This document shows positions 23,167 to 42,921 of a stretch of 50,584 nucleotides of DNA, in pieces; positions within the stretch are counted from its first letter, which is position 1, and each line of letters begins with the position of its first letter. Position numbers and translations under genes: made by a program. The notes below the pieces were generated by a model. The model ran no database searches. It was not told the DNA's origin and saw nothing but the letters and a program-made list of their open reading frames with translations. Source of the stretch: Acidobacteriota bacterium (lineage in GTDB: Bacteria; Acidobacteriota; Blastocatellia; UBA7656); NCBI GenBank assembly GCA_040754075.1, contig JBFMDH010000017.1, positions 1 to 50,584 of the forward strand. The letters are read 5' to 3'.

Positions 23167-23182
23167 AAAACCTGAAGAACAT

Positions 23183-23210: not shown

Positions 23211-23261
23211 GTCATTTGTGATTATCAACGGCTTGGCAATGGTGAATTGCCTTCAGGGGCA

Positions 23262-24602: not shown

Positions 24603-24718
24603 CTTCTTGTCCCTTTAATTGTTAATTTGGAAATCAAACGGTGGTTCTCTTTCAAATCGAAAAACGCTTTAAAAGAAAGCATAAGTTGTCTCAAGCAATT
24701 TGCCGGGTGTTGATTCAA

Positions 24719-25126
24719 TTAACCCGTGTACGGACTCAGATAAATCGCTTCATCGTAATCAACGATGGCAAGTCGCACCAGTCGAAGCCATCCTTGCCTA
24801 CCTAAAAGATTGCGCGGCAAATTTTCAAATTCGGAAAAATAGACAATAGTTTGGAAACTGAGTCCCAGCGTTTCCAATGTGACTTCGTGCCCATAAGCCA
24901 GCATACTGCCCGCAATCGTCGTGAGCGATAAAGGAATGCCGGATTCAATATCAATTCCCAAATCTTCACCGGCGTCTCGCGTATAAAGACAAACTTGCGC
25001 GCCGGTATCTATCTTTGCATCAACGGAAACAAAATGTCGACCAAGCCGCAAAGCCGTTGGTATAGTGATTCCACTCTCCAGAGATTTATAAACGTAACGC
25101 TCAGCAAATGTGAGTTGAAATGGCAT
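24719..25126 (-). CDS. Retropepsin-like aspartic protease
   Basis: 135 residues. KIDTGAQVCLY (Asp at 40) is the DTGA active site of clan AA aspartic proteases. TTIAGSMLAYGHEV and NLLGRQGWL supply the flap-like and ILG-like C-terminal elements. Length fits a single retropepsin-like domain that acts as a homodimer. No signal peptide, so cytoplasmic. The gene follows a DUF5678-type gene by 23 bases. Such neighbouring pairs are, from memory, also frequent in cyanobacteria, where the function is unknown. Only a distant AGG precedes the ATG, so translation may depend on coupling to the gene upstream. Confidence 0.85.
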   Translation of the reverse strand: MPFQLTFAERYVYKSLESGITIPTALRLGRHFVSVDAKIDTGAQVCLYTRDAGEDLGIDIESGIPLSLTTIAGSMLAYGHEVTLETLGLSFQTIVYFSEFENLPRNLLGRQGWLRLVRLAIVDYDEAIYLSPYTG

Positions 25127-25149
25127 ACAGATTCAAAACCTGAAAAGGA

Positions 25150-25530
25150 TTACCACAACACAAATGGCGGCGCATCGGGCGGTTCGACAAAAATCATCAA
25201 TGCATCAGGAACCCCTTTTTGTCGCGCTGTTTCAATGACTTCTTTGAACTTTTTGCCATGTGCAAGCAAATTATCATCATCCAACGCTACCCATTGATGC
25301 AAATATTCCTGACGGTGCGCTCGTAACCACTCGTATTCTTTGGTGCGGTCTTTGGGAGGCGCAGTGTAGCCGAGAAATCGCGGCACTGGAAGTTTATTGG
25401 GCGTCGGTTCTGAAGTTGCTTGTTCCAGCCGCTGCAATTTTTCGTCCACCACTTGACGCAATTGACGCAAGCTTTCCTGATTCAAGGCATCAATCTCAGC
25501 AATAACTTTTTCGAGCGTCACTTCAGACAT
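25150..25530 (-). CDS. DUF5678-type small protein paired with the protease
   Basis: 126 residues. The N-terminal half is a charged helical region (LEKVIAEIDALNQESLRQLRQVVDEKLQRLEQ) that could form a coiled coil. The C-terminal half (WLRAHRQEYLHQWVALDDDNLLAHGKKFKEVI, then GVPDALMIFVEPPD) agrees with the DUF5678 pattern of a Trp/Val/Ala/Leu strand, an acidic turn and a basic helix. Start chosen at the ATG at 25530, which has GGAG seven bases upstream; upstream methionines in the frame lack that spacing. The retropepsin-like gene directly downstream suggests it is a partner, regulator or substrate of the protease. Confidence 0.75.
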   Translation of the reverse strand: MSEVTLEKVIAEIDALNQESLRQLRQVVDEKLQRLEQATSEPTPNKLPVPRFLGYTAPPKDRTKEYEWLRAHRQEYLHQWVALDDDNLLAHGKKFKEVIETARQKGVPDALMIFVEPPDAPPFVLW

Positions 25531-25591
25531 AACCATTCTCCTGGTCGCTATCATAGCGTATCGCTCAATTGATTGCGATAACTTGCGCGCC

Positions 25592-26857
25592 TTATCTGGC
25601 TACACGTTTGCCGATGCAATAAAGGTGCTGCGTGGTGCGAATGAAAATCTGCCCGTCGGAAATTGCCAGCGTACTCAGACAATAATCTTTCAAATCGTTT
25701 TCAGCGAGCACTTCAAATTTATCACCGGCTTTTAACACGACGGTGAGTCCGTCTTCATTGGTGATGTAAATTTTGCCGTCCGCCAAGATAGGCGAGGCGC
25801 TGTAGGTCGCGGGTTTAATGCGTTCAGGTCCCCAGATGACTTTTCCGGTTTTCGCATCCAGACACCAGGTGACGCCCCGGTCATCGAACGAATAAAAATA
25901 TTTTCCATCGGTCACCGGCGTCGGCACATCGGGTCCTCTATCAAATGACCAGAGCTTATGCGAAGCGGTAATATCGCCGCGCCCTCCGGCTTTAATCGCG
26001 ACTACAGGCTTGACGCGACTCGGTGAATAGACGATGCCATCTGCAACCACAGGCGACGCGACGATGCGATAAAACGGATGGTTTTCGGGATTGAGACCAT
26101 TGACGCGCCACAACTCTTTGCCGGTCGCCAGGTCGTGCCCGGTTACACAATCGCCGCCGGTGATGACGATTTCTTTGGTGTTGCCGTATTTCAGAAGCGC
26201 CGGTGTCGCATAGGAATCGGGCGATTCCTGTATGGCTTGCGTAGGACGTTCAACCCGCCACAAAGTCTTGCCGGTTTTTTTATCAATGCGAAGGATGTAT
26301 GACGGGTCATCGGTTCGCATGCCGTGAAGCACCTGCACATAAAGCGAATCTTCATGGAGAAGCGGCGATGAAGCATAACCCCAGTTCAAGCCGAAATGTC
26401 CGTAATCTTTTTGAATATCGCGCGCCCAAGTTTCCGCGCCTTTGAAATCAAAAGCTTTTAAAACGCCGGTGCCGGTCATCACCCAGACGTTTTGCCCATC
26501 GGTGACAGGACTGGGCGATGACATATTCTGTTTGCGCATTTTGACATTGCCGGTGCCTAAAAGTTTCCTCCAAAGCGTTTCGCCTTTGGCGCGATTTAAA
26601 CACCAGAGGTAGAGGCTATCGCCATCAGCGATGTTTAAAAAAATCAATTCACCCCAGATAATCGGCGTTGACCCGCTCAAGGCAGGCATCGGCACTTTCC
26701 AGGTAAGGTTTTCGGTTTCGCTCCAGGTGGTCGGCAGATTCTTTTCGCTGCTCGTGCCGTTTAAATTGGGTCCGCGCCATTGCGCCCAATTTTCGGCAAA
26801 CGAAATATTCAGACAAAACAAAAGGATGAATCCCGCAATGAAAATTCGTTGGGTCAC
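25592..26857 (-). CDS. Secreted PQQ-like beta-propeller protein (copy 3)
   Basis: 421 residues with a signal peptide ([18 protein letters not shown]) and [12 protein letters not shown] opening, followed by blades with [34 protein letters not shown] and [13 protein letters not shown] start at 26857 with a strong ribosome binding site (GGAGGTAAATC). It is closest in its opening to copy 1 (WRGPSFNG against WRGPNLNG) and lacks the Gly-rich insert. Several acid and His residues differ from copies 2 and 4. Function as for the other copies: periplasmic or surface propeller, unproven activity. Confidence 0.9.
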
Positions 26858-26899
26858 GATTTACCTCCCTGTAGTGTGTGTTTAGGAAATGTAAAACTA

Positions 26900-26926
26900 A
26901 CCGCAAAAACGCCAGGAACGCAAAGC
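26900..26926. repeat. Short period-9 degenerate tandem repeat
   Basis: Three 9-base units, ACCGCAAAA, ACGCCAGGA and ACGCAAAGC, run in tandem between two propeller genes, 43 bases upstream of the GTG of copy 3. It matches the style of the other short-period tracts but with a period of 9. Confidence 0.45.
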
Positions 26927-27008
26927 CAAATCGAAATTCGCTCATAGACCGACTATCAGAGCGCACACACCTGAACGCCCGCGCTGATGGTCAATCGGTT
27001 GACAGCTT

Positions 27009-28256
27009 TTATTCAAAACTCCAAAGCGCCAGTGAGTTCTGGTCTTTAATCAACACCTGCTTGCCGATTATTGCGGGATGCGCCCACGTCGGACTATCGG
27101 CGACGGTGTATTTCTTGAGTATCTGATACTGTTTTTCAGAAGCATTGGCAACCGTGAGTTCCGCGCCGTCGTCGAGCAGAAATAGCCATGACCCGGCAGC
27201 GACGATTGCCGCATTGTCGCCTTCGCGTCCTGCGCTTGTCCAAAGGGTTTTGCCAGTCCTCGCATCAAGGCAAAAGTATTGCCCTTTTTTCTTGTGCGAC
27301 ATGCCGTAAAGATAATCGCCTCGCAGTACAGGCGAATTCATGTACATCGCCACCTCTTTATTTTCCCAGACAGTTTCGGGCTTGAATTTCCCATCGCTTT
27401 TTGTGAGGCGAACTGCAAATGTGCCTTTGTCGATGCCGGAAAAAATCAACGTGTCTTTATAGGCGACGGGAGTGACGATGTTTTGCAAATACGCTGTGGT
27501 AAATGGTATCTGCCAGAGCAATTCGCCATTCGCCGGGTTGACGCCGATGATGTTGACTTGTGACTGCGTAACCAGTTGCCGCGTGCCGCCGAGTTCAACG
27601 ACAATCGGCGAAGCGTAAGCGGGACCATCGCCCATCCAGCGCCATTTCACCTCGCCGGTCTCGGCATCAAATGCCGTGAGCGCGCCGCTATTCAAGCCGC
27701 CGACATGCGCAATCACTAACCCCTTATCCACGATGGGCGACATAGCGACGCCGAAATCGGGTGAGGTGGTTTTAAATTCTTTGGAAAATTCCTTGCGCCA
27801 TCGGCGCGCGCCAGTCGTCGCGTCGTAGCAGGACAGCACCCCGTTGATGCCGAAAGTATAAAGCTTGCCGTTGGCGATAACCGGAGTTGATTTCGGTCCC
27901 TTGCCGTGGGTGACGGCAGCGGGATTCATCTTGTAATCCACCGCATAGCTGTCTTTCCAGATTGGTTTGCCGCTTGCCAAATCATAAGCGGCAACGGTTT
28001 CGAGTTCGCCCACTCGCGTGAACGTAAAAATGCGCTTGCCGACAACCACAGGCGATGCATGCCCGATACCGATTTCGATTTTCCATTGGCGTTGCAATTG
28101 TTCCGGCAAGCTTTTGGGTTGAACAAAACCGTTGGCAATGCCATCACGACCCGCGCCGCGCCATTGCGCCCAATCTTGCGCAAGAGTTGATTGAGTGATG
28201 AAGAAAGTAGTTAAAGCAACGAAAAAAACTGGGCGAAAAAGGTTTCTTTTAAGCAT
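27009..28256 (-). CDS. Secreted PQQ-like beta-propeller protein (copy 4)
   Basis: About 415 residues starting MLKRNLFRPVFF, with signal peptide ending near TLAQ, then DWAQWRGAGRDGIANGF. Blades follow with GKPIWKDSYA, GARRWRKEFSKEF, GEVKWRWMGDG and GELLWQIPF. Fourth copy of the family within 13 kb. It differs more than the others in the middle blades (YLQNIVTPVAYKDTLIF). ATG at 28256 chosen over an upstream TTG. It is followed on the same strand by copy 3 with a 150-base gap. Confidence 0.9.
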   Translation of the reverse strand: MLKRNLFRPVFFVALTTFFITQSTLAQDWAQWRGAGRDGIANGFVQPKSLPEQLQRQWKIEIGIGHASPVVVGKRIFTFTRVGELETVAAYDLASGKPIWKDSYAVDYKMNPAAVTHGKGPKSTPVIANGKLYTFGINGVLSCYDATTGARRWRKEFSKEFKTTSPDFGVAMSPIVDKGLVIAHVGGLNSGALTAFDAETGEVKWRWMGDGPAYASPIVVELGGTRQLVTQSQVNIIGVNPANGELLWQIPFTTAYLQNIVTPVAYKDTLIFSGIDKGTFAVRLTKSDGKFKPETVWENKEVAMYMNSPVLRGDYLYGMSHKKKGQYFCLDARTGKTLWTSAGREGDNAAIVAAGSWLFLLDDGAELTVANASEKQYQILKKYTVADSPTWAHPAIIGKQVLIKDQNSLALWSFE

Positions 28257-28389
28257 GAAAATTTGAACTCCCAATAATTACTGGCTGGTGATTATCATTA
28301 AAAATCATTCATATGAAAATTTATTCCCGTTTTTATTCGGCGCGCAAAGAGGCAAGCAACGGCAACCTGAAGGAGAATACTGAATCCTC

Positions 28390-29255: not shown

Positions 29256-32200
29256 TTATTCGGCGCGCAAAGAAGCAAGCAAGGGCAACCTGAGCGCCGC
29301 CCGCGTAGCAAAAACCGATGCCAGCAAACCAGTCGCTAAAACCGCAAGCAACAACAGCGCCAGCGACACGGTCGGCAAATGTCCGCCACGCGCCAGAAAC
29401 GCCGGGGCGATGGCAAGTAGCGCACACGCGGTTCCGGTCACCAGTCCGCAAATTAACAGCAGCGCGTTTTCGGCAATCACCATCAGTGAAAAATGCCTGG
29501 CGTTGTAACCGATGGCTTTTAGTAGTGCCAGCTCTTTGCGCCGCTCTAAAACATTTCTCAAGAGCACGGTCGCAAGCCCCAGCGTGCCAAGCAACAGTCC
29601 CAATGCGCCGAGGGTTTGAAACGTAGAGATATAGGTGTTTTCGACGCGATGAAAACTCGCCAGACGTTCTGCCGTAGACATCACATCAAACCCATAATCG
29701 GATAATTTTTCTTCAAGCGCCGCAGTGACTGCGGTTTGATTCTGCGACTCGACATCAAGCAGGAAAAATCCATATCCGCCTTCGTTAATAAAGGCGTTTA
29801 AAAAATTTTTCTCGCTCATCAGAAATTCGCTTTGAAAGAGGCTGTCAGAGAGCGCCGCAACAATTTTTAATCTGAGCGCCGCTTTGCCGGTTTGTTCGAG
29901 CAAAAATTCATCGCCCAACTTCAAATGCAGAACATAGGTGAGCGAATTGGCATCAACAATAACCGGAATCACCGATTGCGGACTTTCCAATTGCGGATTG
30001 CGGATTGTGGATTGCGGATTGACGCTGCTGGTTGATGATTGCGATTGGTTTTTTGAATTTGATTCTGAAAAATCTTTGTTGAGCAATAACCAGGGATTCG
30101 CTTTTTCTTCTGCGGTTTGTGCCAGTGAATCCTGAAAGGTGAAGCGATTGCTTTGAATGAAATCGTCGGTTGCGCCGAGAATGCGCGGGTTGTGCGGTTG
30201 ATAGAGGTTTAAACAACTGGTATCTTCGCCGCGCCTCAGTCGAAAGCGCGTAAACGCGACCATATCGGGCGAAAACCGGCTGTCGGCGGTGATGTTCAAT
30301 TCTTCGCGTCCATCAACGGTTGCCGGGTCATAATGCAAATTCAAAAGCGTTTCGGCAAGCAAGGGAAATCCTCCGGTTCCCGATTTTTTATCAAACGCAT
30401 TGGCGCTTACGTCGCGTCTGAACGCATCAACCGCGACGATAATGAACGCCGCCGAAGCAATGAGCGCGATACACAGGACGCTGCGTCCGGCACGATACGT
30501 CGCATTGCGAAATCCCATCGCCGATACGGCGCGAAAACCTTTGCCCTTGAGTAGCGATTTGTTTTCGCTGCGCAACCACACCGATTGCCAACCAAGCAAG
30601 GCAACCAAAAGCGAAATCCCCGCCCCGAAAAATCCCGCAACCTGCCCGATACGATTGGTTGCTGCCATCGCCAGCAGCGCAAAGCCCAGTATGGCAAAAA
30701 TGATTGCCGCAACTCGGGCAGAAAACAGTCGCCCGATGGCAAAGCCCTGACGTTTGTTTTTTTCACCAACGACCGGCGACTGATCGCCGACCACCACGCC
30801 GGATAGCAAAGCGCGCGGCGCGGCACGTTTAAGCGCGCGCAACGTCCACCAGATACACAGAAGCGCCGCAATCACGCCGCCGAGGCTTCCGAAAATCAGC
30901 GATATTGGACTAATGTGCAATCGCAAAAGCGTGGTGCCGACCGCGCCGACCCAAAACGTTTTCAGCCCAACCATCAACAACCAGGCAAAGATGATTGCTG
31001 CAACAATGCCGATGAGACTGCCAAGCGCCGCGAGCATCACGCCTTCGATTAAAAACAGGTTGCGAACTTTGCTATTGGAAAAACCGATGGCGCGCAGCAA
31101 GCCGATTTCTCTGACGCGCTGTTCAATACCGAGTTTGAAAAACAGGCTTGCAAGCATCAATGCTGAAACCACCAGAAAGAAACTGAAATAGATAAAGTAT
31201 TCGCCGAAATCGGTCGCGCCCTGCGATGCTTTTAACCCTTGCGCTTTCACATCGAATACCACCAAACCCGCTGCCACAGGGTCTAGCGCATCGCGCAATC
31301 GGGTTTTGAAGTTTGCAAGCGAACTTTGCAAATCGCTTTTATCTTCGGGGTAAATTCTCATTGAAGTCGCCCGACCATAACGGGTTTGCCAGAGCCTTTG
31401 CCCGACCGGCAATTCGATAAAAGCTTTCGGCGTGGTGCGATATTGTTTCCAGTAGGCATCGTCTTTCGGACGCACACGTTTGAGGTCTACGGGAAACGGC
31501 GGGTCCCAATCCGAAAGACTTGCGGTATCACTGATACCCGGATAATCGGGAACCAGATTGCGGTCGGCTGCCGCGCCTGCAATTGAAGTCACACCTGCCA
31601 GTCGAAAATTGGCGCGCGCGGTTTCCAATTTCCCGTCTTCTTGCCAAACATAATATTCAAGGGTGATTACATCTCCGACCCGGGCATGCAAATCACTTGC
31701 TGCCCAGTCATTCAGAATAATCGGCGGGCTTTGCGCAGTCACTGTGCCTTGCGCGGCACGAGGATTCGCATATCCTGATTCCGCATTGCCTGTCGCGTTT
31801 TGCGGCGCAGTTTGAGTTGAATGGCTTGCATCATTTTTCGCGGATGTATTGCGTGAAACCGGGTTGGATTTGGTCAATGTCGCAAGCCGCGTTTCATCAA
31901 ACGCTGTGACCAGTGAATAAGGAATTGCATGGCTTTCGGTGCTGATAGTATTTGCCAGATAACTCAACACCGGCTCGGCTTTCGCGCCGGAACTTGCGGC
32001 AACGGTCTTTACTTCATCGGCAATCGTGTCGTTAATGATGGCGCTGTCGCTTTCAAGTTGAATACAACTTTGGTCTTCGAGCACGCGCAATTTCAATCCT
32101 AAATCTTCGAGCGCGAATTGCTCTTTTAAAATTTTCGCAAGCGTTGCAACCTTTCCCGACTCCCGACTCCCGACTCCTGATTCCTGACTTCCTTGAATCA

Positions 32201-32882
32201 GTAAGGCATTGGCTTTGCCCTGCATCTCCAAATCTTTTTGCAGGCGACGCAGGGAAACAAAAATTGCGCGCACCTGACCTTGTTGCGGGCGCAGTGAAAA
32301 ACTGCCAAGCATGGATTCGCTCAATGCTTCGCGCATTGAGAGGCGAATGGTGCGACCTAAATCATCTTTCTTGCCGTGCAAAGACCCCGCCGGAATTGCC
32401 GAAGGTTTTTCAATGCGCAGCAGTATCGAATCATTGGCGTTGCTTCCAAGTTCAGCGGCAAGCGCCTCGCTCATAAGCAATTCGCGGTCTTCGATTGGGT
32501 GAGCGGTTTTGCCGTGAAATTGCCAGAAGCGTTCATCAATGCCATAGACCTGCACCTGCGAGGCGCTCTGTTTGCTTTTTTCGTGCGTTACATATCCGTT
32601 CAAAGTAATGACCGGACAGGCGGCTTTGAAATTGGCGCTGAATTGATTATTCGCCTGTAAATCGGCGGCAAGCGGTTCGCGAAAAAAGCTTGTCGAAGAA
32701 ATGATGTAATCGGTATTGCCAAGCCTTGATAAAAATAATTCGCGAAGGCTGGCGCGCACCGAATCGCCGACGAGCAAGGCTCCGGCAAGCACCGCCACGG
32801 CAGTCGCTACACCTGAGATGACCGCGAGATTGGTGCGCCAAAAATGCAGGAGGTTTTGTTTAATCAGCCTGGAGGTTTTCAT
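29256..32882 (-). CDS. MacB/FtsX-type ABC transporter permease with in-frame repeat tracts
   Basis: About 1208 residues. Membrane spans lie near the N-terminus (HFWRTNLAVISGVATAVAVLAGALLVGDS), around 560-700 (a cluster of four, FFLVVSALMLASLFF onward), near 740-800 and at the C-terminus (LGALGLLLGTLGLATVLL onward). The FtsX pattern EQRVREIGLLRAIGFSNSKVRNLF appears once, with a matching ERRKELALLKAIGYNARHFSL later, so two FtsX units are joined as in long LolC/MacB-like permeases. Such permeases drive lipoprotein or peptide transport by mechanotransmission. The ATPase gene is 1.8 kb upstream in the same operon. Two in-frame heptamer tracts lie at residues about 232-243 and 954-965 in extracytoplasmic loops. 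ATG at 32882 preferred; M positions at 32894 and 32909 also exist. Confidence 0.88.
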   Translation of the reverse strand: MKTSRLIKQNLLHFWRTNLAVISGVATAVAVLAGALLVGDSVRASLRELFLSRLGNTDYIISSTSFFREPLAADLQANNQFSANFKAACPVITLNGYVTHEKSKQSASQVQVYGIDERFWQFHGKTAHPIEDRELLMSEALAAELGSNANDSILLRIEKPSAIPAGSLHGKKDDLGRTIRLSMREALSESMLGSFSLRPQQGQVRAIFVSLRRLQKDLEMQGKANALLIQGSQESGVGSRESGKVATLAKILKEQFALEDLGLKLRVLEDQSCIQLESDSAIINDTIADEVKTVAASSGAKAEPVLSYLANTISTESHAIPYSLVTAFDETRLATLTKSNPVSRNTSAKNDASHSTQTAPQNATGNAESGYANPRAAQGTVTAQSPPIILNDWAASDLHARVGDVITLEYYVWQEDGKLETARANFRLAGVTSIAGAAADRNLVPDYPGISDTASLSDWDPPFPVDLKRVRPKDDAYWKQYRTTPKAFIELPVGQRLWQTRYGRATSMRIYPEDKSDLQSSLANFKTRLRDALDPVAAGLVVFDVKAQGLKASQGATDFGEYFIYFSFFLVVSALMLASLFFKLGIEQRVREIGLLRAIGFSNSKVRNLFLIEGVMLAALGSLIGIVAAIIFAWLLMVGLKTFWVGAVGTTLLRLHISPISLIFGSLGGVIAALLCIWWTLRALKRAAPRALLSGVVVGDQSPVVGEKNKRQGFAIGRLFSARVAAIIFAILGFALLAMAATNRIGQVAGFFGAGISLLVALLGWQSVWLRSENKSLLKGKGFRAVSAMGFRNATYRAGRSVLCIALIASAAFIIVAVDAFRRDVSANAFDKKSGTGGFPLLAETLLNLHYDPATVDGREELNITADSRFSPDMVAFTRFRLRRGEDTSCLNLYQPHNPRILGATDDFIQSNRFTFQDSLAQTAEEKANPWLLLNKDFSESNSKNQSQSSTSSVNPQSTIRNPQLESPQSVIPVIVDANSLTYVLHLKLGDEFLLEQTGKAALRLKIVAALSDSLFQSEFLMSEKNFLNAFINEGGYGFFLLDVESQNQTAVTAALEEKLSDYGFDVMSTAERLASFHRVENTYISTFQTLGALGLLLGTLGLATVLLRNVLERRKELALLKAIGYNARHFSLMVIAENALLLICGLVTGTACALLAIAPAFLARGGHLPTVSLALLLLAVLATGLLASVFATRAALRLPLLASLRAE
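29990..30024. repeat. Period-7 ATTGCGG tract inside the permease gene
   Basis: ATTGCGG, ATTGCGG, ATTGTGG, ATTGCGG and a partial unit run in tandem. On the minus strand they encode part of a Ser/Asn/Gln-rich stretch around SVNPQSTIRNPQ (residues about 954-965). The frame stays open because 35 bases of added sequence still read through without a stop. Confidence 0.85.
32155..32189. repeat. Period-7 CCCGACT tract inside the permease gene
   Basis: Five heptamers: CCCGACT three times, then CCTGATT and CCTGACT. On the minus strand they encode QESGVGSRESG (residues about 232-243). This low-complexity patch sits in the first large extracytoplasmic region of the permease. Confidence 0.88.
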
Positions 32883-32911
32883 AATGAACTGCATTGACTG
32901 GTGTCGCAAAT

Positions 32912-34609
32912 TTATTGCGCTTGTTTGACGAAGCGCATATTGCGTATGCGTCCCGAACCGATAATCAATCCGTTAATGCGTTTTTGCGCGTCGCGTGTAA
33001 AGCGAAGGGTTCCCAGTTGAATGTTGATGAACGCATCTTTGAATGCTGTCATAAACGACGCAGCCGGATATTTTTTGCGTTTCAAAAACAGCTTGCCATC
33101 CTGGATTTCGATTCTGTAAGTCGCGTCCAACTCATCGCTATAAAACGCCCCGGCATACTCTTTCAACTCGTCGGCAGTCGGATTCATCGCCTCCATTTGT
33201 GTAAATAGAATCGGCTTTCTGCCTTCGATATTGACAATCATTTGGAGTCTGCCATCCGCACCCGGTTCAAATCGCACCTCGGCGGGTTGCACTTTCATCT
33301 GAAAACGGTTTTCGGAAAGCGCAATGAGTTCGCTGCTTGTGCCGCCCGCGAAATAGAGCTTGCCATTCGAGAGCGTCACTTTGGCGAAATCTTCGGCAGA
33401 CGGGTTCCAGTACGCGCCTATTTTCAGTTTCAACTGCTCTTCGGTAAGCGTCACCCCCTTAATTTCCGCAACGGGTTTCGCCGCCTCCGGTTTCAGAAGG
33501 TCAGCAAGATAAACATCGGCGACCTGTCGCGCCAGCATACCGGGATTGGTGCTGGCGAGATTGCAAAGACAGGCGACAGAAAATTTCTGTTCGGGAAACC
33601 GCATCAGGTGCGAGCGATAACCGGCATCGGCTCCCGAATGCTCGACGATTTTCAAACCTTTATAATTGCCAACTGCCAGTCCATGTGTGTAAGGGAATTT
33701 ATCGCCGTTATTGAGCGTCGTGGTGGTTTGCATTTGCGTAATCACGTCGTTTCCACCGACTTGATAGTCGTAAAAATTTTGATCCCATTTGACGAGGTCT
33801 TCGATGGTGGTAAGCAAACTGCTCGCGCCCACAGTATCGTAATTCGGCACATTGAATTTGAATGTATTATTGGCGGCAGGCACATAACCGTATGCCTGAT
33901 TTTTAACAATCACTGCATGGTCATCACGAAAGAAAGTGTTGTTCATGCCAAGCGATTTGAAAATATTTTCAGCGGCGAATTCGCGCAGGGATTTGCCGCT
34001 CACGCGCTTAACGATAATCGCCAGCAAGGTGTACCCGGTATTGCAATAAAGAAACTGGTCGCCGGGTTTGAAGTTCAAATCTTTCTGTCGCGATACGAGT
34101 TCGAGAATGTCTTCGTCGCGCACTACGTCTTCGGAAAGTCGCCAGCCCGCCATCACCAACAAACTCCACTGGTCGCGCAGTCCGCTGGTGTGATGCAGTA
34201 AATGGCGAATGGTGATTTTGTGCCCAAAATCCGGCAATTCCGTAATATATTTTTTCACTTCATCATCAAGCGACAGTTTGCCTTGTTTGGCGAGCAGGTG
34301 AATCGCCATCGCAGTAAATTGTTTGGAAACCGAGGCGACGTGAAAAACTGAGGCAGAGGTGATTGGAATGTCATGGTCGAGGTCTGCCATTCCATAACCG
34401 CGTTTGTAAATCAACTGCCCGTCTTTGATGACGCCAAGCGCGCAACCGGGCGAGGTCGGCTTATCCCAATTCGCGAAAATTTTATCAACCTTAGCGGCGA
34501 GCGTTTCAGCCTGATGGTTTTGCGCGAACGTTGAAAATGGCAATAGAACGATGCCCGATAGCATGACAACAAGTTCTAATAAAGGGAATCGGTGATGGGA
34601 TAATTTCAT
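32912..34609 (-). CDS. Exported serine beta-lactamase-like hydrolase (class C fold)
   Basis: 565 residues with a signal peptide (LVVMLSGIVLLPFSTFA). The SxxK motif is in VASVSKQFTAMA (near 94-97), the YxN in YCNTGYTLLAI and the third element in EHSGADAGYRSHLM. This is the serine hydrolase fold shared by class C beta-lactamases, esterases and D-aminopeptidases. The C-terminal 200 residues look like two small beta domains of the DUF3471 kind, which are common in such proteins. Substrate unknown. It lies between the ABC ATPase (37 bases upstream) and the permease (29 bases downstream) on one strand. The ATG has AAGGAG eight bases upstream. The position suggests that its product works with the transporter. 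Confidence 0.92.
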   Translation of the reverse strand: MKLSHHRFPLLELVVMLSGIVLLPFSTFAQNHQAETLAAKVDKIFANWDKPTSPGCALGVIKDGQLIYKRGYGMADLDHDIPITSASVFHVASVSKQFTAMAIHLLAKQGKLSLDDEVKKYITELPDFGHKITIRHLLHHTSGLRDQWSLLVMAGWRLSEDVVRDEDILELVSRQKDLNFKPGDQFLYCNTGYTLLAIIVKRVSGKSLREFAAENIFKSLGMNNTFFRDDHAVIVKNQAYGYVPAANNTFKFNVPNYDTVGASSLLTTIEDLVKWDQNFYDYQVGGNDVITQMQTTTTLNNGDKFPYTHGLAVGNYKGLKIVEHSGADAGYRSHLMRFPEQKFSVACLCNLASTNPGMLARQVADVYLADLLKPEAAKPVAEIKGVTLTEEQLKLKIGAYWNPSAEDFAKVTLSNGKLYFAGGTSSELIALSENRFQMKVQPAEVRFEPGADGRLQMIVNIEGRKPILFTQMEAMNPTADELKEYAGAFYSDELDATYRIEIQDGKLFLKRKKYPAASFMTAFKDAFINIQLGTLRFTRDAQKRINGLIIGSGRIRNMRFVKQAQ

Positions 34610-34646: not shown

Positions 34647-35312
34647 TTAAATTTGTTTAAGGTGATGGTCGCACATTTCAAAGCGTTTCGGAAAACGCGC
34701 CGCGAGTTCGGCGTTGTGAGTAACCACCACGAGAATAGTCTGTTGTTTCCGGTGCAGTTCAAATAAAAGTCCGGCGACCGCTTCGGCGGAGTTGTGGTCG
34801 AGGTTGCCGGTCGGTTCATCGCACAAAAGCATCGTTGGTTGCATAATCAAGGCGCGGGCAATCGCTACACGTTGTTTTTCGCCGCCCGATAGTTCCGCCG
34901 GTCGATGGGTGAGTCGCTCGGTGAGTCCTACCTGCGCAAGCAAAGTTTTGGCGCGCGCCGTAAAATCTTCACCTTTTTCGGCAATCAGCGTCGGCGTCAG
35001 CACATTTTCCAAGACGGTGAGTTGCGGCAACAGACAATGGTCTTGAAAGACAAAGCCGATTTGTTGGTTGCGAAAGGTCGCGAGTTGCGCTTCATCAAGC
35101 GCGAAGGGATTTTGCCCATCGAGTGTGACACTCCCATTGGTTGGCGTATCGAGCGCGCCGAGAATGTAAAGCAGTGTGCTTTTGCCGCTGCCCGAAGGAC
35201 CCATAATCGAAACCGCGTCGCCGCGTTCAATTTTTAAGCTGATGTCTTCAAGCACCGGAAGCGTGCCGTTGGGTGTTGGGTAGGTTTTGGTTAAGTTGGT
35301 AATTTCGAGCAA
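34647..35312 (-). CDS. LolD/MacB-type ABC transporter ATPase
   Basis: 221 residues: Walker [10 protein letters not shown] (about 38-46), Q-loop [22 protein letters not shown], signature [15 protein letters not shown], Walker [14 protein letters not shown] and the H-loop VVVTHN. The ENVL pattern after the Q-loop fits the MacB/LolD group of ATPases that pair with FtsX-type permeases. The TTG start at 35312 has GAGG eight bases upstream. It is the first gene of an operon with the serine hydrolase and the long permease. Preceded by the palindrome at 35331-35490. Confidence 0.95.
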
Positions 35313-35510: not shown

Positions 35511-36803
35511 TCATTGATTGATTAATCCTGTATAAACTTCGACGGCGCGTTCGGTCATGCGTTCGACGCTGTAATGTTTACGCACGCCCGCGTGTCCGTT
35601 GCGGCTGAGTTCTTCCGCCAACGCTCTATCCTGCCAGATGGCAAACAATCCGTCTGCTAAATTTTTAGCATCACCGGGTTCGACCAGGATACCGCCGGAA
35701 GTTTTCGCGATGATTTCAGGAAATGCGCCGTGTCGCGGTTGCACAACCGGAATGCCTGATGCCATCGCTTCAAATAAAAACAAGCCTTTCGGTTCATGAT
35801 AAGGCGTCGGCACCGAAAGCACATCGAGCGTATGCAGAAAATCGATTTTGCCCTGCCGGTCGAGCGAACCGCGATAGGTGAATTCATTGCTAAAGCCCCA
35901 ATCGCTTACCTGCTGTTTAATTTTATTGAAATAATCGTGATTTTCAGCGCCGAGGTATCCGGCAACTTCCAGACGCATCTTCGGCGCGTCCCGGCGTTCA
36001 CGCAAAAATTTGTAAGCTTCGGTTAAAACGTGCAGCCCTTTTTCGGGTGCAATGCGCGCAAAGTAGCCGACCGTAAAAATGTCCGCGTGGTTTTCGCGCT
36101 CTCGGCGCGAGTAGCCTTCGAGATTGATGCCAAGCGGCACGAGGTGAATTTTTTCCGGCGGAATGCGCAGATAATCTGCCATAAACTCCGCGTAGTAATT
36201 GCTCACCGCGATGAAGGCATCGACGTATTCGATATTGTCACGCACCAGATTCATGGCGGTTTGGCGGTAAGCGTCTTGCAGTCCGTCTAAAAATAAATCT
36301 TCGCCTTGCAGGGTGCAGACAATCGGTTTTTTAAGGGCTTCGCGCAGAGGTCGCGCAAGTCCGATGAGCAAGGCGTTCGGCAGATTGATGAGGTCAATGT
36401 CGGGTTCGGTCCTAAGCCAGTGAATGAGTTTATGAATCTCTTTGCGCTGAAAACCGTCTTCGCCTTTAAGGGTCGAGATGGTCATTTCGCCGAGCAGTTT
36501 GGGGTCAACGGCGATTGAGCGTTTCGCTGCCATTTTCAAAGCGAATTTTGAATCCCAGAGTTTGTCCAGTAGCCATGGGGTTTTGCGAAACAGGGCGGAG
36601 TGTTGTTCAAGGTAAACACTGATGCCGCCGAAAAAGACCTTTTCCTGCGAAACATTCACTTCATCGGTAAGCGTCGGCGTGTAGATAGGCACAAGCATTA
36701 CGTCGTGCCCCTGGCGTTTCATTTCCGCAGCCAGCGCATTATCGCGCAAACAACTGCCGCAATACATACCCGCTGCCCCAGCCGTGATGTAAATCAGTTT
36801 CAT
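35511..36803 (-). CDS. GT4-family glycosyltransferase
   Basis: 430 residues with two Rossmann halves. The N-terminal half starts LIYITAGAAGMYCGSCLRDNALA, the C-terminal half holds the sugar-nucleotide site EPKGLFLFEAMASGIPVVQPRHGAFPE (E-x7-E, near 345-370) and LVEPGDAKNLADGL. This is the GT-B fold of GT4 enzymes, which use nucleotide sugars to build polysaccharides or glycolipids. The acceptor is not known. GSCLRD at the start is common to a subset of GT4 enzymes from Acidobacteria and Planctomycetes, from memory. It stands alone between the ABC operon and the small gene at 36905. Confidence 0.92.
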   Translation of the reverse strand: MKLIYITAGAAGMYCGSCLRDNALAAEMKRQGHDVMLVPIYTPTLTDEVNVSQEKVFFGGISVYLEQHSALFRKTPWLLDKLWDSKFALKMAAKRSIAVDPKLLGEMTISTLKGEDGFQRKEIHKLIHWLRTEPDIDLINLPNALLIGLARPLREALKKPIVCTLQGEDLFLDGLQDAYRQTAMNLVRDNIEYVDAFIAVSNYYAEFMADYLRIPPEKIHLVPLGINLEGYSRRERENHADIFTVGYFARIAPEKGLHVLTEAYKFLRERRDAPKMRLEVAGYLGAENHDYFNKIKQQVSDWGFSNEFTYRGSLDRQGKIDFLHTLDVLSVPTPYHEPKGLFLFEAMASGIPVVQPRHGAFPEIIAKTSGGILVEPGDAKNLADGLFAIWQDRALAEELSRNGHAGVRKHYSVERMTERAVEVYTGLINQ

Positions 36804-36904: not shown

Positions 36905-37435
36905 TTACCAAATGATTGCTGCACCACCTTGTCTTCCGCCAGCAGCCAGGTCAGCAGAATAGATTATTTGGTTAGGATATTCAGGGCGGCTACTCAATGT
37001 AATAGCTAATGAAGTTGTACGAGCATCTTTTGGATACTTATCCCAACCGTTTTCTGTTTGCGTGTAGATTACGTTACAGCCATCTGGTTGATATAGGCGG
37101 GTTATTTCCATCGGAGGCGGCTGCCGATACATAATGATGAGCGCACGACTAAATTTTCCAAATTTGTTTCCGTGAACACCCTGACTTCTGAAGTGCAATT
37201 GACCTGTCAGTCCTTGGCTTTTGAGATATTGCATCTCTTCATCGGTTAGTTTGCAAGATGCACACTGATCAAAAACTGCTGGCAGTTCAATCATTCTAAG
37301 AGGTTCGGAATCTATTTCTAATTTATAAAAAACGACTTCTAGGTTTTGTGATGAGGTGGTTACATTAGCTACCAAAATGGAAGATATAACTACAATTAAA
37401 AACGAAAGAGTTGTTGTACGTACTAATCGTGTCAT
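36905..37435 (-). CDS. Small exported protein of unknown function
   Basis: 176 residues with a signal peptide or anchor (TTTLSFLIVVISSILVANV). Not recognised. After it are FYKLEIDSEPLRMIELP and CASCKLTDEEMQYL with a CxxC-like pair, then a beta-rich region and a Gly-rich end (AAGGRQGGAAIIW). The ATG has GGAGG five bases upstream, one of the best ribosome binding sites in the window, and the gene is more AT-rich than its neighbours. It begins 19 bases after the aldehyde dehydrogenase gene on the same strand, so it is probably in the same transcript. Confidence 0.65.
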   Translation of the reverse strand: MTRLVRTTTLSFLIVVISSILVANVTTSSQNLEVVFYKLEIDSEPLRMIELPAVFDQCASCKLTDEEMQYLKSQGLTGQLHFRSQGVHGNKFGKFSRALIIMYRQPPPMEITRLYQPDGCNVIYTQTENGWDKYPKDARTTSLAITLSSRPEYPNQIIYSADLAAGGRQGGAAIIW

Positions 37436-37454
37436 GAATTCCTCCATTGCCTAT

Positions 37455-38879
37455 TTAAGCCCTTGCGCGTTGAAATGCCCGCCGCGCATAGAGGTGTTCA
37501 AAGAGATTGCCTTCGTGCGGTTGATCCCAACCGATTTGCCAGGTCGGAATCGCGCCGATGTTTAAACGGTCAACCAAGCGCGAAGTAATCAAACGCTCGA
37601 TTAACGATTCATCCCGCGTGATTGCCGTTAGCACCAATGTCTGCCCCAGGCGTTCGGGAATTTCGTCTTGACTCACGGTCACGACACTTGCATAGGGGAA
37701 GAGGAATTCTTTATTCGCCAAAGTGTGTTCAGGCGAATTGCACAGCACCACGGTCGGCAGCAAGTAGGTACAGCCATTCAAATGCGCGATGCGTTCGCCG
37801 TTGCGATAAGCGGCGGTCAAATCCTGCGCGCCTTCTTCCATTAATCCGCCATCAACCATCGCCGAAATGCGTTCACCAACCGCGCCATCGGCAAACGGCG
37901 CGATTTGCGCGTTGTCATCATCGGCAGCCAGCGGCATCACTTGAGCGAAACGTTCAGCCAAGGCTTGAGCGATTTTATCTGCGTGACGCGGCACCCAGAC
38001 GCCCGAGGCATTGATGCACGAACGCCCGCCGTTTTCCAAAATCGAAGAAGCAATCACATCAATATATTTTTCCCATTCGTCTATACAATCTTCGCCGATG
38101 ACAACTTTGCTGTAACCGGGCCCGTGCAATTCAATGCGCGGGTCGTTTTTGAATTTGCCGACCGCCGCGACATCGCCGAACATCATGCCGCGCCCGCTCA
38201 TTCTTAAAATATCCGCCGCACCCGCGTGCGATGTCGGATAAAAATAAAATGCTTCACGCGAAATACCCGCTTTGATGAAGGCTTGAATGATGCGATAAGG
38301 CGACCACGGTTCAGCCGCGCCGGGTTTTAAAACCAGCGCCGTTTTGAGGGCAATCGCCGGAATCCACAATGAATGTACGCCGGGCGAATTGCTCGGCAAG
38401 ACGACGCCAAGCGTATCGCCGCGCGGGTAAAAACCGACCGCGTGACCTTCGTGAGCGCCAAACCCCGAATCGAGAATCTGCAAATCAAGTCCCCGTGTCA
38501 GCCCGTCAATAACGCTGCGCATCTGGGCGAGCGCGTTATAAATCTTGCGCATATTTTTGCGCACCATCACAAACGGCATGCCGGTGGTTGCCGATAACTG
38601 CTCGACATAATCCTGCGGCGATTGCTCGCCGTCACCAAGCGGCAAGCTATCGTTTAAAAAATATTCCGCAGCCTGCCTGGAAATCGCGAGTAACTCTTCG
38701 GTAGAAAATTTCGTCAGCGCCAGGCGGCTTTGGTGTTGGGTGAGCAGATCGCGGCGAATCAGACCGCCGTTGGCTTGCGAAATTTCCACAAAGGGTTCGC
38801 GGGTCTGATGATGCGGAGTCGTCGAAACGTCAACGCTTTTATAAGGATTGCCTTTTCTGAGAATGGGTATGTGTATCAT
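37455..38879 (-). CDS. Aldehyde dehydrogenase family protein (LuxC-size acyl reductase candidate)
   Basis: 474 residues. The opening IPILRKGNPYKSVDV is typical of a planctomycete/acidobacterial subfamily. The ALDH motifs appear: LGVVLPSNSPGVHSLWIPAIALKTALVLKPG (NAD site), ELHGPGYSKVVIGEDC in place of the usual ELGGK stretch, and NGGRSCINASGVW with the catalytic Cys. It should oxidise an aldehyde or, in LuxC-like enzymes, reduce an acyl group to an aldehyde; direction is unknown. Its length is near the about 480 residues of LuxC. It starts 24 bases after the GCS2-CBS gene and precedes a small exported protein, in the same operon as a LuxE-size adenylating enzyme. Confidence 0.88.
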   Translation of the reverse strand: MIHIPILRKGNPYKSVDVSTTPHHQTREPFVEISQANGGLIRRDLLTQHQSRLALTKFSTEELLAISRQAAEYFLNDSLPLGDGEQSPQDYVEQLSATTGMPFVMVRKNMRKIYNALAQMRSVIDGLTRGLDLQILDSGFGAHEGHAVGFYPRGDTLGVVLPSNSPGVHSLWIPAIALKTALVLKPGAAEPWSPYRIIQAFIKAGISREAFYFYPTSHAGAADILRMSGRGMMFGDVAAVGKFKNDPRIELHGPGYSKVVIGEDCIDEWEKYIDVIASSILENGGRSCINASGVWVPRHADKIAQALAERFAQVMPLAADDDNAQIAPFADGAVGERISAMVDGGLMEEGAQDLTAAYRNGERIAHLNGCTYLLPTVVLCNSPEHTLANKEFLFPYASVVTVSQDEIPERLGQTLVLTAITRDESLIERLITSRLVDRLNIGAIPTWQIGWDQPHEGNLFEHLYARRAFQRARA

Positions 38880-38903
38880 AAATTTGTCGCTCGCATAAAG
38901 GTT

Positions 38904-40841
38904 TTAGCTGACCGGGTCGTCGTTTTCAATCTCTGAAAAAATTTTTCTAATTAAATCGGCGGAAATGGTTAAAAAATCATATGCGGTGACGATGCCAACC
39001 AGTTGACCGTCTTCAACGATTGGCAAACAGCCGACGCGATGTTCGCGCATCAGTTCCATCGCTTCGATAATCGAGGTGTCGGGGGTTGCGGTGAGCGGCT
39101 CCGATTTCATAATCTCTTTCACTTTAATCGGCTCGGATTTTTTATCGGTCGTGCGATGATAGAGCATCTTGAGCAAATCTCTATGCGACACCAGACCGAT
39201 CAAATGTCCTTCATTGTCTTCAACCGGAATGTGACGAATGTGCCGCCAATCCATCACCGATGCCGCGAGGTCAATCAAATCATCGGGTCTTAGAGTAAAC
39301 AAATCCGTCGTCATAAATTGACTGAGGGTGCGAAAACTATTCGCCCAATCGCGAAAGCCCGACAGTTTGGCGAGTTCCCAAGTGTGCACCGGGTTATTCA
39401 GCTTTTGTTCTTTGAGCATGGTTGCCACCAGTGCCTGATGCCTTTGTTCGCGCGTACCCTGTTCGTGCATCGCCGCAAGCGAACGCAATATCCAGAGCGA
39501 GCCGTTCTGGTCGCGCCTGACGCGCTCTTCGATGGTGCCAAGATAACGGTCGCGGTCTTCCACCGGCACGGCGGCTTTTTCCAGCCCTTGATGCGCCAGC
39601 GGCAAGAGATGGTCGAGAACGAGTTCCGGCGCGGGAATCCGGCGACCGTTCACCCAACTGAATTGCGCATTCAATCCGTGCCGCGCCGCCGCATAAAAAT
39701 TCTCTTTCGCATCATCGAACGACATGATTTGCCGGACGTCACCATATTCATCCGGGAGCGCGTTCATCAGTCCCAGAAAAAACGCAGCGTTTGCTATTTC
39801 ATCGAGCATCGTTGGACCCGACGGAATGACGCGGTTTTCAATCCGCAGATGCGCTTTGCCGTCGAGTATGCCGTAACAAGGGCGATTCCAACGCCAGACC
39901 GTGCCATTATGTAAACGCAACGCCGAAAGCTCCGGGAGTTTGCCGCGTTCAAGCGCGCCCAGCGGGTCTTCTTCTATATGCTTGGTCAAAATCACACGGT
40001 AGCGCGCCACCTGTTCGCGAAAAATTTCCAGAATCGAATGCGCCAACCACTGATTGCCAAAGGTGACGCGCGCCGGATAGCCGCGCACATAGCGCGCGCT
40101 TGAGCGTTCATCAACCGAATGTTGAAAGAGCGCGATTCGCGTTTCGTGCCACAAACGATTGCCGAGCAATAGCGGCGAATTGGTTGAGACCGCCATCACC
40201 GGCGCGGTTATCGCCTGCGCCAGATTATAAAAGCCGACGAACTCTTGGGCGCTGACTTGCAAGTGAACCTGAAAGCTTGTGCAACAGGCTTCCAGCATGA
40301 CGTTATCGTGGGTCAGGTGCAGGGCATCCAAACCTTTGATGTAAACATTAAAAGAGCCGCCGCGCAGCAGATTCACAGCGCGATTGAGTTCGGCGTATCG
40401 CGGATTGGGCGCAAGGTTTTCAAGGGACAAATCTGAATGACGAATGGTCGGTAAGATGCCGGTTAAAACAATATCGGCATCACAGGCTTGTGCGCCGCGT
40501 CTGGCAATGGCAACAACCTCTTCCAACTCGCGTTCCATCAATTGCAGACAGCGACCTTGAAAAAGTTGTGGCGAAAGATTGGCTTCGAGATTGAACCTGC
40601 CGATTTCCGTAGTAAGCCGCGGGTCTTTACCTTCAGCGAGAATCTCCATAGAGACCGGCGCAGGACGCATGGAATCATCCACCAGAAACATCTCCTGCTC
40701 GGCTCCGATTCTGCGCGCGCCGCTTTCAATCAACCCGCTTTCCAACATCTGTTCAAGCGCGGCAATATCGGCAAGCAACGATTGCATAAACCCGAGCGCC
40801 TGCCGGTCATCATGTTCGAGAGCAATATCATGTTCCCCCAT
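38904..40841 (-). CDS. GCS2-type carboxylate-amine ligase fused to two CBS domains
   Basis: About 645 residues. The N-terminal 500 residues match the glutamate-cysteine ligase GCS2 group, with [11 protein letters not shown], a long beta-sheet core ([22 protein letters not shown]) and the catalytic region [13 protein letters not shown]. Two CBS motifs follow at about 505-640 ([31 protein letters not shown] and [30 protein letters not shown]), which bind adenosine nucleotides and usually regulate. The enzyme should join a carboxylate to an amine with ATP; the substrates are unknown. Start set at the ATG at 40841, which has GGGG six bases upstream. It lies between the nuclease remnant and the ALDH gene, 24 bases from the latter. 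Confidence 0.9.
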
Positions 40842-40949
40842 AAACATCCCCTAATGATTCGTTCAAATGACTGCTGATTTCACGGGGGATATCTCAATTT
40901 TGAAAAGCTGCTTTAACGCCTGAAAAAAAGCCTTCTTGCACACCCGCTT

Positions 40950-41821
40950 CTAATGAGTCGAGGAATTTTTATCGAGCCAGGCAATGAGGTCAGCTTTGGT
41001 TTTGAAATCCAATAACTCATCGCTCATTTTTTCAAGCTGTTTTGAAGAAAGACTTTCTATTTGACGATGGATTTTAGGCGACAACCTGCCAAGCTTACGA
41101 GTCAGCAATCGCAAAACGATATTTTGTTCGCCTTGAACCAAACCTCGCTTCACGCCCTTTTGTAAAATGTCCTGATAAACCGATGATTCTTCCAACATAT
41201 CGCTCTCCTTCAAAATCCCATAAACGATATTTTTATTGTACCGCAATCCCGCCAACACTTGAGAAAAAGTCAGCGTCTCGCGTCGTTGTTGTGACGATTT
41301 TAACATACCAATCCGGCTCGCCAATTCGCTCAATAAACTTTCGCCGGATTCGGTTCGGCATAACGCCGCCAAAGGAAGCAAGCCGCCGAATTTCATTAAG
41401 GCTTTTGCGTCCTGTTCCCACATTCGCACCACCGTATAGGCATGATGCGTATGTTCATCGCGATATTCGTCAACCACTTTTTCGCCGGTCGCTTTCAAAA
41501 CAATCAAAACTTGCCGGATGGGATTAGTAAGGTGCAAGCGTTTGAGACCAACGTAATAATCAAGCATCCTGAGCGGCAAAGGAATTTTACTTTGCGCAGT
41601 GGTTTGAAATTCAATATGAAAAATCTCGCCGGTTTTAGCTGACAAAATTACCGAATCGGCGCGAATTGGCTCACGACTCATTTCGGTTTTAATATTTTCA
41701 CTTTGCCGCTGCGCACCCCGAAAAGCCACTGCACGAATTGCTCAGGATACCTTTCCGCAAGTTCTTTGCAGAGATTGTCGCTGGCTATCGGTTTGGATTC
41801 GGTATCCGGTTGCCCATCCAA
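40950..41821 (-). pseudogene. Rpn/DUF4351-like PD-(D/E)XK nuclease gene with a frameshift
   Basis: The frame that begins with TTG at 41821 reads DGQPDTESKPIASDNLCKELAERYPEQFVQWLFGV and ends in a stop after KVKILKPK. The continuing protein is in another frame: ENIKTEMSREPIRADSVILSAKTGEIFHIEFQTTAQSK. Adding one A to the four-A run at 41687-41690 joins the two frames into one protein with the family's DNLCKxLAE start, EPIRAD and HIEFQT active-site stretch, and the DUF4351-like end. It may be a one-base deletion, a sequence error or programmed slippage. The TTG starts three bases from the stop codon of the LuxE-like gene, with GGAG ten bases upstream inside that gene. Confidence 0.8.
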
Positions 41822-41823
41822 TT

Positions 41824-42921
41824 TCAATAAACTCCTTCAACCACTTTGGTCTGGAAGCGTGAGAAGGGGCGCACATTGCGAACTCCATCCCAGGGGTATT
41901 TTTCACAGGGCAACTCGCGTTCGGCTTCGTCACGTTCCAAAAATCGTGGCATGAAAAATTCTTTAGTAAGCGTCGTGAGCCGCACTCTTCCGGTCTTTCC
42001 GTATTCGACAACGCTATCGGTTTCATCCGGGTCAACGACTTCAATCATGGCGCGCGGCGACGGTGGATAATAGATAATCGCGTAATTGTCTGCCGGGTCG
42101 AAGGGTTTATGCGTCGCCAGTCCCATTAACGTATTGCCATAGGTCGGCGCAAAATAACCGCCTTCCATTAATTCTTCAACGGCAAAGCGATGAAATTGCG
42201 GGGTCATTTCCGTGCCACCACAAAATACGCCTCGGATACCGGCTTTCTTGAGCGAGATTTTTTCACATAATGCTTCAAGTAATTTAGGCGTCGTAAACAG
42301 ACATTGAATGTTATCGTGGGCTTTGATTAACGTCAGCGCCTGATTGATCACATGGTCTTTGTAAGCCTGCGCGATTTCGGCTTCGCCCCACTTGAGCAGC
42401 TTGATAAAAAAGCGCGGGTCGAGGTCAATCATAAAACAGATGCCGCCGCGAAATTGCGCCAGATGTTCAATCGCCAGTCTCAGTCGTCGCGGACCCGATG
42501 GCCCAACCATCAACCAGTCCGCGCCTTTCGGAAAAAATTCATCGGGCAGGGTTTCACTGAAGAGTTCATAGTCAATGCGAAAATCATTGATGGCGATGCG
42601 CGATTTAGGAACGCCCGTTGACCCGCCGGTTTCAAATGTATAAATCGGTTTATCGGCATAGGCTTTCGGGACCCAGCGGCGCACGGGACCGCCGCGCAAC
42701 CATTCATCCTGAAAATTGCCAAACAGATTCAGGTCATCATAGGTTTTGATGTCTTTACGCGGATCAAAATCCAAGGTCTTTGCCCGCTCTAACCAGAAAG
42801 GGCAGCCGGTTTCCGGGTTAAAATGCCACTGAACAACTTCGCGCACCCAGGCATCCAATCGCTCGCGTGCGCTCTTCATCTGTGCTTGCATATCGGTTTC
42901 CGTTCTTGATTTCAATTTCAT
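41824..42921 (-). CDS. LuxE/PaaK-like adenylating enzyme
   Basis: 365 residues with the adenylation loop TFETGGSTGVPKSRIA near 92-107, a variant of the T(S/T)GTTGxPK P-loop of acyl-AMP-forming enzymes. Later come FTTPKLLEAL, FCGGTEMTPQFH and FAPTYGNTLMG, which fit the phenylacetate-CoA ligase/LuxE group. It lacks the C-terminal lid domain of PaaK, and its length is close to LuxE acyl-protein synthetase (about 370). A Cys in ELPCEKYPWDG near the C-terminus could be an acyl-acceptor candidate. It probably activates a carboxylic acid with ATP. First gene of the cluster that also holds GCS2-CBS and ALDH; divergent from the YbaK gene. The start has only GAGAGA close upstream. Confidence 0.85.
   Translation of the reverse strand: MKLKSRTETDMQAQMKSARERLDAWVREVVQWHFNPETGCPFWLERAKTLDFDPRKDIKTYDDLNLFGNFQDEWLRGGPVRRWVPKAYADKPIYTFETGGSTGVPKSRIAINDFRIDYELFSETLPDEFFPKGADWLMVGPSGPRRLRLAIEHLAQFRGGICFMIDLDPRFFIKLLKWGEAEIAQAYKDHVINQALTLIKAHDNIQCLFTTPKLLEALCEKISLKKAGIRGVFCGGTEMTPQFHRFAVEELMEGGYFAPTYGNTLMGLATHKPFDPADNYAIIYYPPSPRAMIEVVDPDETDSVVEYGKTGRVRLTTLTKEFFMPRFLERDEAERELPCEKYPWDGVRNVRPFSRFQTKVVEGVY

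Follow-up and report, generated by a model that had tools for sequence, protein, structure and literature searches.

Adenylating enzyme and aldehyde-dehydrogenase-fold partner of an Acidobacteriota bacterium as a probable EhpF/EhpG-type carboxylate reductase within a larger conserved gene set

What does an adenylating enzyme without a lid domain do together with an aldehyde dehydrogenase (ALDH) in an Acidobacteriota bacterium, and which of the neighboring genes belong to the same pathway? The window, the whole stretch of 50,584 nucleotides that we analyzed (C17:1-50584 of a 7.58-Mb assembly), carries genes for an adenylating enzyme, a GCS2-CBS protein, the ALDH and a small protein, which are all real genes and all lie on the - strand. 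A sequence-only reading of this DNA had joined activation, amide formation and reduction of a carboxylic acid as successive steps, with LuxE and LuxC as the comparison. From family membership, fold, catalytic residues, linkage and co-occurrence, all of which were computed, we conclude that the outer genes probably specify an ATP-dependent carboxylate reductase made of two proteins, like EhpF/EhpG and GriC/GriD, that works inside a larger pathway, with the GCS2-CBS gene as a passenger.

The adenylating enzyme (41824..42921, - strand, 365 aa) has EhpF as its top sequence match in the PDB (E 1.4e-44, residues 10-365; 3e-52 when searched as a profile). For its AlphaFold model, EhpF chains occupy ranks 1-5 of the Foldseek list at template modeling (TM) scores of 0.76-0.77, and PaaK-type ligases come next at about 0.6-0.65. 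The model has a mean predicted local distance difference test (pLDDT) score of 82, with values below 50 in the P-loop stretch 96-105. The C-terminal lid domain is missing from the window enzyme, as it is from EhpF; the sequence-only reading had seen this absence correctly while likening the protein to LuxE, a likeness that the nearest structure does not bear out. In Pfam searches at E 1e-3 the AMP-binding match was barely above its cut-off (30.4 bits vs 29.9), and an NCBIfam search gave one sub-threshold match and nothing above. The P-loop, ETGGSTGVPKS, is largely invariant across 24 aligned rows, in which YGNT is kept too. Seven plasmid relatives, examined among 28 records with a match, are 31-36% identical to the window enzyme (EhpF itself 31%), plasmid relatives annotated 'arylcarboxylate reductase' 33-37%, and the enzymes of Planctomycetota and Poribacteria 55-74%. 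In a tree that left out matches containing stops or spanning fewer than about 320 residues, and that was rooted at the midpoint because the seven plasmid proteins are not one clade, the 104 proteins of Acidobacteria, Planctomycetota and Poribacteria are monophyletic with a support of 0.94. The protein is an ANL adenylating domain without lid whose nearest structure is EhpF, and by sequence and predicted fold we assign it to the EhpF/GriC type and not to LuxE.

Hydrolytic ALDHs use a Glu residue as their hydrolytic base. In the window ALDH (37455..38879, - strand, 474 aa; Aldedh Pfam match of 56.8 bits), the position of this general base is held by a His (H252), as in 31 of 31 family rows, in all of which C288 is also invariant. 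The Glu is missing at the same position in all five aligned plasmid ALDH partners, EhpG included, which are 22-25% identical to it. Most of these partners have GPGxSK, the Cys motif and a C-terminal PHxG motif in common with the window ALDH, and EhpG has GPGxSK and the C-terminal motif. An ALDH-fold partner with the catalytic Cys and without the Glu base was found except at loci L003 and L023. The residues, together with the co-occurrence described next, lead us to predict that the ALDH is an EhpG/GriD-type acyl reductase and the partner of the adenylating enzyme.

Although 2.9 kb of inserts separate the two genes in the window, they go together elsewhere. We compared the best 80 of 152 relative loci, several of them on stretches cut short where contigs end, and an ALDH match is present at 60. 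Among 58 relatives, comprising the window's own genome and genomes of the same family, order and class, EhpF occurs in 17 and the ALDH in 16 at E 1e-60, namely in 15 of those with EhpF and as one fragment in G046; the two remaining EhpF genomes are G015, which has no match, and G027, which has an internally deleted copy. Counted by genus, the ALDH is found in 12/13 with EhpF vs 0/17 without. In a sample of 99 Planctomycetota genomes, EhpF and the ALDH are present in the identical 21 (p 6e-22), also when unlinked, and in 20 further EhpF genomes chosen from the 80 loci, 16 of them non-acidobacterial, the ALDH is present in 19 (the exception being G072). In the one-contig genome G063, EhpF, ALDH and the permease described below lie at 0.90, 0.44 and 3.68 Mb, and the association is therefore independent of linkage. 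The pair also lies side by side on plasmids of Pantoea agglomerans (L106), Burkholderia ubonensis (L105), Streptomyces (L103) and the haloarchaeon Halalkalicoccus (L107); the adjoining AMP-binding and ALDH genes of L106 belong to the Pantoea agglomerans phenazine cluster, their identity as ehp genes being judged from gene content. At L104 the ALDH is 2 kb from the EhpF-like gene on the opposite strand, and at L102 and L108 no ALDH was listed within 5 kb. A lid-less adenylating enzyme, an ALDH without the hydrolytic base and the joint presence of the pair in three phyla support the earlier proposal of acid activation followed by acyl reduction.

The conserved neighborhood continues past the ALDH into genes that the sequence-only reading overlooked, all on the - strand: a family 4 glycosyltransferase (GT4; 35511..36803, Pfam), a LolD-like ATP-binding cassette (ABC) ATPase (34647..35312) and an FtsX/ADOP-like ABC permease of 1217 aa (29256..32909). 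The acidobacterial gene order is EhpF, ALDH, GT4, LolD and permease. Of 36 acidobacterial loci where the ALDH is present and followed by 1 kb or more of sequence, 35 have GT4 on the same strand at most 700 bases downstream of the ALDH. GT4 occurs in 15 of the 58 relatives, every one of which has EhpF (it is missing in G015 and G052). The permease occurs in 19, comprising all 17 with EhpF plus G042 and G046, two assemblies from a single genus with a completeness of 83 and 89%. By genus, GT4 and the permease are each found in 13/13 with EhpF vs 0/17 without. The permease is also present in 27 of the 99 Planctomycetota (20 of the 21 with EhpF, G138 being the exception, plus seven without EhpF) and in all 20 further genomes. 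The LolD protein scores 264 bits with NCBIfam, under the equivalog cut-off of 307.75, and a match stands after GT4 at 32 of the 80 relative loci; the permease matches the ADOP model at 39.3 bits with its C-terminal part only. EhpF, the reductase, GT4, the LolD ATPase and the giant FtsX-like permease form the conserved unit. Four genes for pyrroloquinoline quinone (PQQ) beta-propeller proteins, recognized by PQQ_2 matches, lie at 15148-28274, two of them at 27009..28274 and 25592..26857 on the - strand, and related propellers are near EhpF at 27 of the 39 loci whose stretches reach 7.5 kb to either side (a count without L051 and L064). PQQ_2 matches number 47 in the genome, counting some that are fragments of a single gene, and we therefore leave the propellers as associated genes of uncertain membership. 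A beta-lactamase-like gene at 32912-34609 was considered as a part and rejected, since it has a match at 2 of the 80 loci and a long one, 63% identical, in L031 only.

In seven planctomycetal stretches (L192-L198) the pair is part of a long gene run, from which single genes are missing or moved in some. Its first half holds a sodium symporter, EhpF, ALDH, an iron alcohol dehydrogenase, a PQQ propeller and a HemN-like radical S-adenosylmethionine (SAM) protein. The second half holds a possible chorismate lyase, a halogenase-like flavoprotein, GT4, a hotdog thioesterase, a small membrane protein, a PaaK-type ligase, LolD and the permease. The halogenase-like and PaaK-type genes are missing from the run in L197, and two or more places share out several run genes in Phycisphaerae and Poribacteria. 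On stretches of up to 8 kb on each side of the acidobacterial EhpF genes, at E 1e-8, none of the run's extra genes was found except the small membrane protein in L054; G008 has a weak thioesterase match (56 bits) 2.7 kb from EhpF. The radical SAM ortholog is present in 9/17 relatives with EhpF, the window's genome among them, vs 0/41 without, at 688-709 bits, while other matches score at most 226. A halogenase-like gene lies beside it in 9/9, with PaaK adjoining in two, and in one relative an alcohol dehydrogenase lies within 8 kb of this radical SAM/halogenase-like pair. In the window's genome the HemN-like radical SAM gene, with the halogenase-like flavoprotein gene directly after it, lies on another contig (C24:20432-23244; L230 10432-13244). 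The best PDB matches of the flavoprotein, 8zop, PltA, 5buk and ChlB4, are entries named halogenase, and CmlS is matched also. WxWxIP, which we take to be the signature of the flavin-dependent halogenase family, is kept as WFWxIP in 11 of 12 flavoprotein rows, including that of the window's genome. By these features the flavoprotein is halogenase-like and a putative flavin-dependent halogenase. At L198 8434-10521, a single open frame of 695 aa encodes a chorismate-lyase-like and a halogenase-like protein together.

The lid-less adenylating enzyme would use ATP to turn a carboxylic acid, which is most likely aromatic, into an acyl-adenylate; the ALDH-fold partner would then take the acyl group as a thioester on C288 and, with NAD(P)H, reduce it to the aldehyde. 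In Planctomycetota the aldehyde would be further reduced to an alcohol. Activation followed by acyl reduction is well supported because EhpF with EhpG, and GriC with GriD, each form a known or proposed carboxylate reductase of two proteins. Bera and colleagues reportedly proposed in 2010 that EhpF and EhpG, working through an adenylate, turn a phenazine dicarboxylate into formyl-phenazine. Like EhpF and EhpG, from the D-alanylgriseoluteic acid phenazine cluster of Pantoea agglomerans, the window pair consists of an ANL enzyme, equally long and also lacking the lid, and an ALDH-fold partner (31% and 22% identical), and EhpF has the closest fold to the window adenylating enzyme. Unlike that cluster, the window has no phenazine genes and has instead GT4, LolD and the giant permease, with radical SAM and halogenase-like genes elsewhere in its genome. 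For grixazone in Streptomyces griseus, one report describes GriC as forming the acyl-AMP and GriD as reducing it to the aldehyde (PMC10179220). The window pair would share this two-protein logic from acid to acyl-AMP to aldehyde, a likeness judged through the plasmid relatives named 'arylcarboxylate reductase', and it has different neighbors.

By the features examined the pair appears to belong to a known two-protein kind, and around it we infer a reductive direction, an aryl substrate, an order of steps, a product and its export. An aryl acid would be made or imported, modified, reduced, glycosylated and exported via the ABC transporter. An aryl substrate is suggested by the kinship with EhpF and GriC, by PaaK and the halogenase-like enzyme, and by the possible chorismate lyase. 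The genes of the larger pathway tend to be retained together or lost together in Acidobacteria, Planctomycetota and Poribacteria. We advance only tentatively, and with the odds somewhat against it, the fuller idea that the three phyla share a pathway of about a dozen genes to an aryl aldehyde or alcohol that is halogenated (or hydroxylated), modified by the radical SAM enzyme, glycosylated and exported by a giant FtsX-type ABC transporter, and that this pathway forms a single gene run in some Planctomycetota and is scattered over the chromosome elsewhere.

Several observations weigh against these conclusions. The window ALDH is only 22% identical to EhpG, and its PDB matches are generic ALDHs, namely semialdehyde, betaine-aldehyde and similar dehydrogenases; the structure comparison likewise returned generic ALDHs only and is non-discriminating. 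The reductase of G027, which has EhpF (L003), lacks query residues 125-352 including C288 with its frame open. The L023 reductase has the same internal deletion shape, no second close reductase copy was found in G027, and either a deletion in the gene or an error of assembly may explain both cases. Genomes G002-G005 carry two EhpF copies and one divergent reductase. For the permease, the seven matches in genomes without EhpF are mostly weaker, but that of G087 (2.4e-84) is as strong as or stronger than those of some genomes with EhpF, and in most genomes only the top 11 or 7 candidates of a first look were scored. The p values exaggerate independence because the genomes are related, though the genus-level counts concur. 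As regards the wider pathway, a strong radical SAM match is missing in 8/17 relatives with EhpF, and halogenase-like flavoproteins include hydroxylases such as QhpG. The chorismate-lyase assignment of the planctomycetal gene is weak (Pfam 0.037, below the cut-off, in 1/8; the entry 2nwi, 'hypothetical protein', at 7.7e-4 with a profile), and no chorismate-lyase-like gene was found in the acidobacterial stretches.

The arrangement in the window itself invites another explanation, the one first proposed from the sequence, in which all three enzymes form one pathway of activation, amide formation by the GCS2-CBS protein and reduction, under control by adenylate charge. The three genes do lie on one strand, and in the window's genome only 24 bases separate the carboxylate-amine ligase-like GCS2-CBS gene (38904..40847, - strand, 647 aa) from the ALDH, with 7 bases between the ALDH and the small protein. 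The gaps described earlier as small nevertheless include 976 bases between the adenylating enzyme and GCS2-CBS, occupied by a Rpn/DUF4351 nuclease-family open reading frame (40950..41729, - strand, 259 aa) that looks 5'-truncated because its match to the Rpn model starts only at position 45. The two CBS stretches are clear in Pfam (107 bits), and the GCS2 score of 20.4 is just under the cut-off of 21. GCS2-CBS, the Rpn gene and the small protein each had a match in 0 of the 80 relative loci. GCS2-CBS occurs in 27 of the 58 relatives without regard to EhpF (9/17 with vs 18/41 without, p 0.57; by genus 8/13 vs 7/17), and among the 58 it shares a contig with EhpF in the window and in G031 (12.6 kb apart) only. 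In the nearest relative the gap between EhpF and the reductase holds a complete family-I proline-tRNA ligase gene (L022 9271-10710; TIGR00408, 582 bits vs a cut-off of 437). Neither linkage nor co-occurrence ties GCS2-CBS to the pair; it is a passenger, and it and the Rpn remnant are local insertions. The trio is conserved in no other genome looked at, whereas the duo of activation and reduction is, which refutes the single three-enzyme pathway at the level of conservation. We reject it as highly improbable, and neither amide formation as a step nor control through the CBS domains is supported. The small protein (36905..37447, - strand, 180 aa) does have the hydrophobic N-terminus noted earlier. 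It lies outside the stretch then described, has no Pfam match and, given its absence from the relative loci, is ruled out as a part of the unit.

The remaining explanations concern the chemistry of the pair and its place in the pathway. A fatty acid reductase like LuxE and LuxC, in which the acyl group passes through a cysteine of the activating enzyme to the reductase and leaves as a fatty aldehyde, fits the size classes of the two proteins and the overall logic of two proteins for acid activation and then reduction, and the nearby ABC exporter would suit a lipid too. In LuxE the cysteine that accepts the acyl group lies close to the C-terminus, but the window adenylating enzyme has no cysteine among its last 20 residues, and the 24 rows hold no invariant cysteine after position 234. 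Neither protein has a LuxE or LuxC Pfam match at E 1e-3, and fold and sequence point to EhpF and then PaaK. We therefore reject this reading, which has very little probability left, and LuxCE does not hold as the comparison; a fatty instead of an aryl substrate may still apply to an EhpF-type pair. PaaK, a phenylacetate-CoA ligase, adenylates an aryl acid, as the window enzyme probably does, and is the second-best fold family of the window enzyme. PaaK has a C-terminal domain and yields a coenzyme A (CoA) thioester, and the planctomycetal run carries a PaaK-type gene of its own besides EhpF. A catabolic direction, in which the ALDH would oxidize a free aldehyde and supply the resulting acid to the adenylating enzyme, accords with the ALDH fold and with the PDB matches to semialdehyde, betaine-aldehyde and similar dehydrogenases. 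It is unlikely in view of the replacement of the general-base Glu by His and its absence from the plasmid partners, and in Planctomycetota the ALDH is followed by an alcohol dehydrogenase amid biosynthetic-looking genes. We also think it improbable, to much the same degree, that the halogenase-like and radical SAM proteins serve, with the exporter, to make a product or cofactor from a protein or peptide, and that the carboxylate reductase belongs to a side branch. The flavoprotein does match the QhpG, LodB and GoxB models, whose enzymes act on proteins, as the model names indicate, and its gene adjoins the radical SAM gene; its best PDB matches are nevertheless named halogenase and it keeps the WFWxIP motif.

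Some loci show further arrangements. The second EhpF copy in L018-L021 (G002-G005) is 64-65% identical to that of the window and has its own ALDH at 45-46%, with no other close ALDH found in these four genomes; these copies group with planctomycetal sequences (support 0.73), a hint of horizontal replacement. EhpF is closely preceded at 12 loci (for example L004 680-1432) by a queuosine-precursor-transporter-like gene; these loci include seven genomes from one family of the relatives. On a Streptomyces plasmid, an EhpF-like gene annotated arylcarboxylate reductase (L108 4998-6080) lies among the futalosine-pathway menaquinone genes mqnE and mqnC.

To our knowledge, two-protein carboxylate reductases have been described from single antibiotic or pigment clusters. 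A two-protein carboxylate reductase of the EhpF/EhpG kind in the window would use known chemistry; here this step is built into a gene set conserved in three little-studied phyla. Among the papers listed by a literature search, whose coverage left out most subscription journals, none describes this gene set, which may be unstudied. The strong conservation of the adenylating enzyme across phyla suggests a common physiological or signaling role and not a lineage-specific antibiotic. The gene set is recognizable even where its genes are dispersed, and with pathway genes scattered in Acidobacteria, the usual cluster mining would miss the pathway there. If the wider pathway is true, it predicts a common and as yet unseen small molecule of these bacteria.

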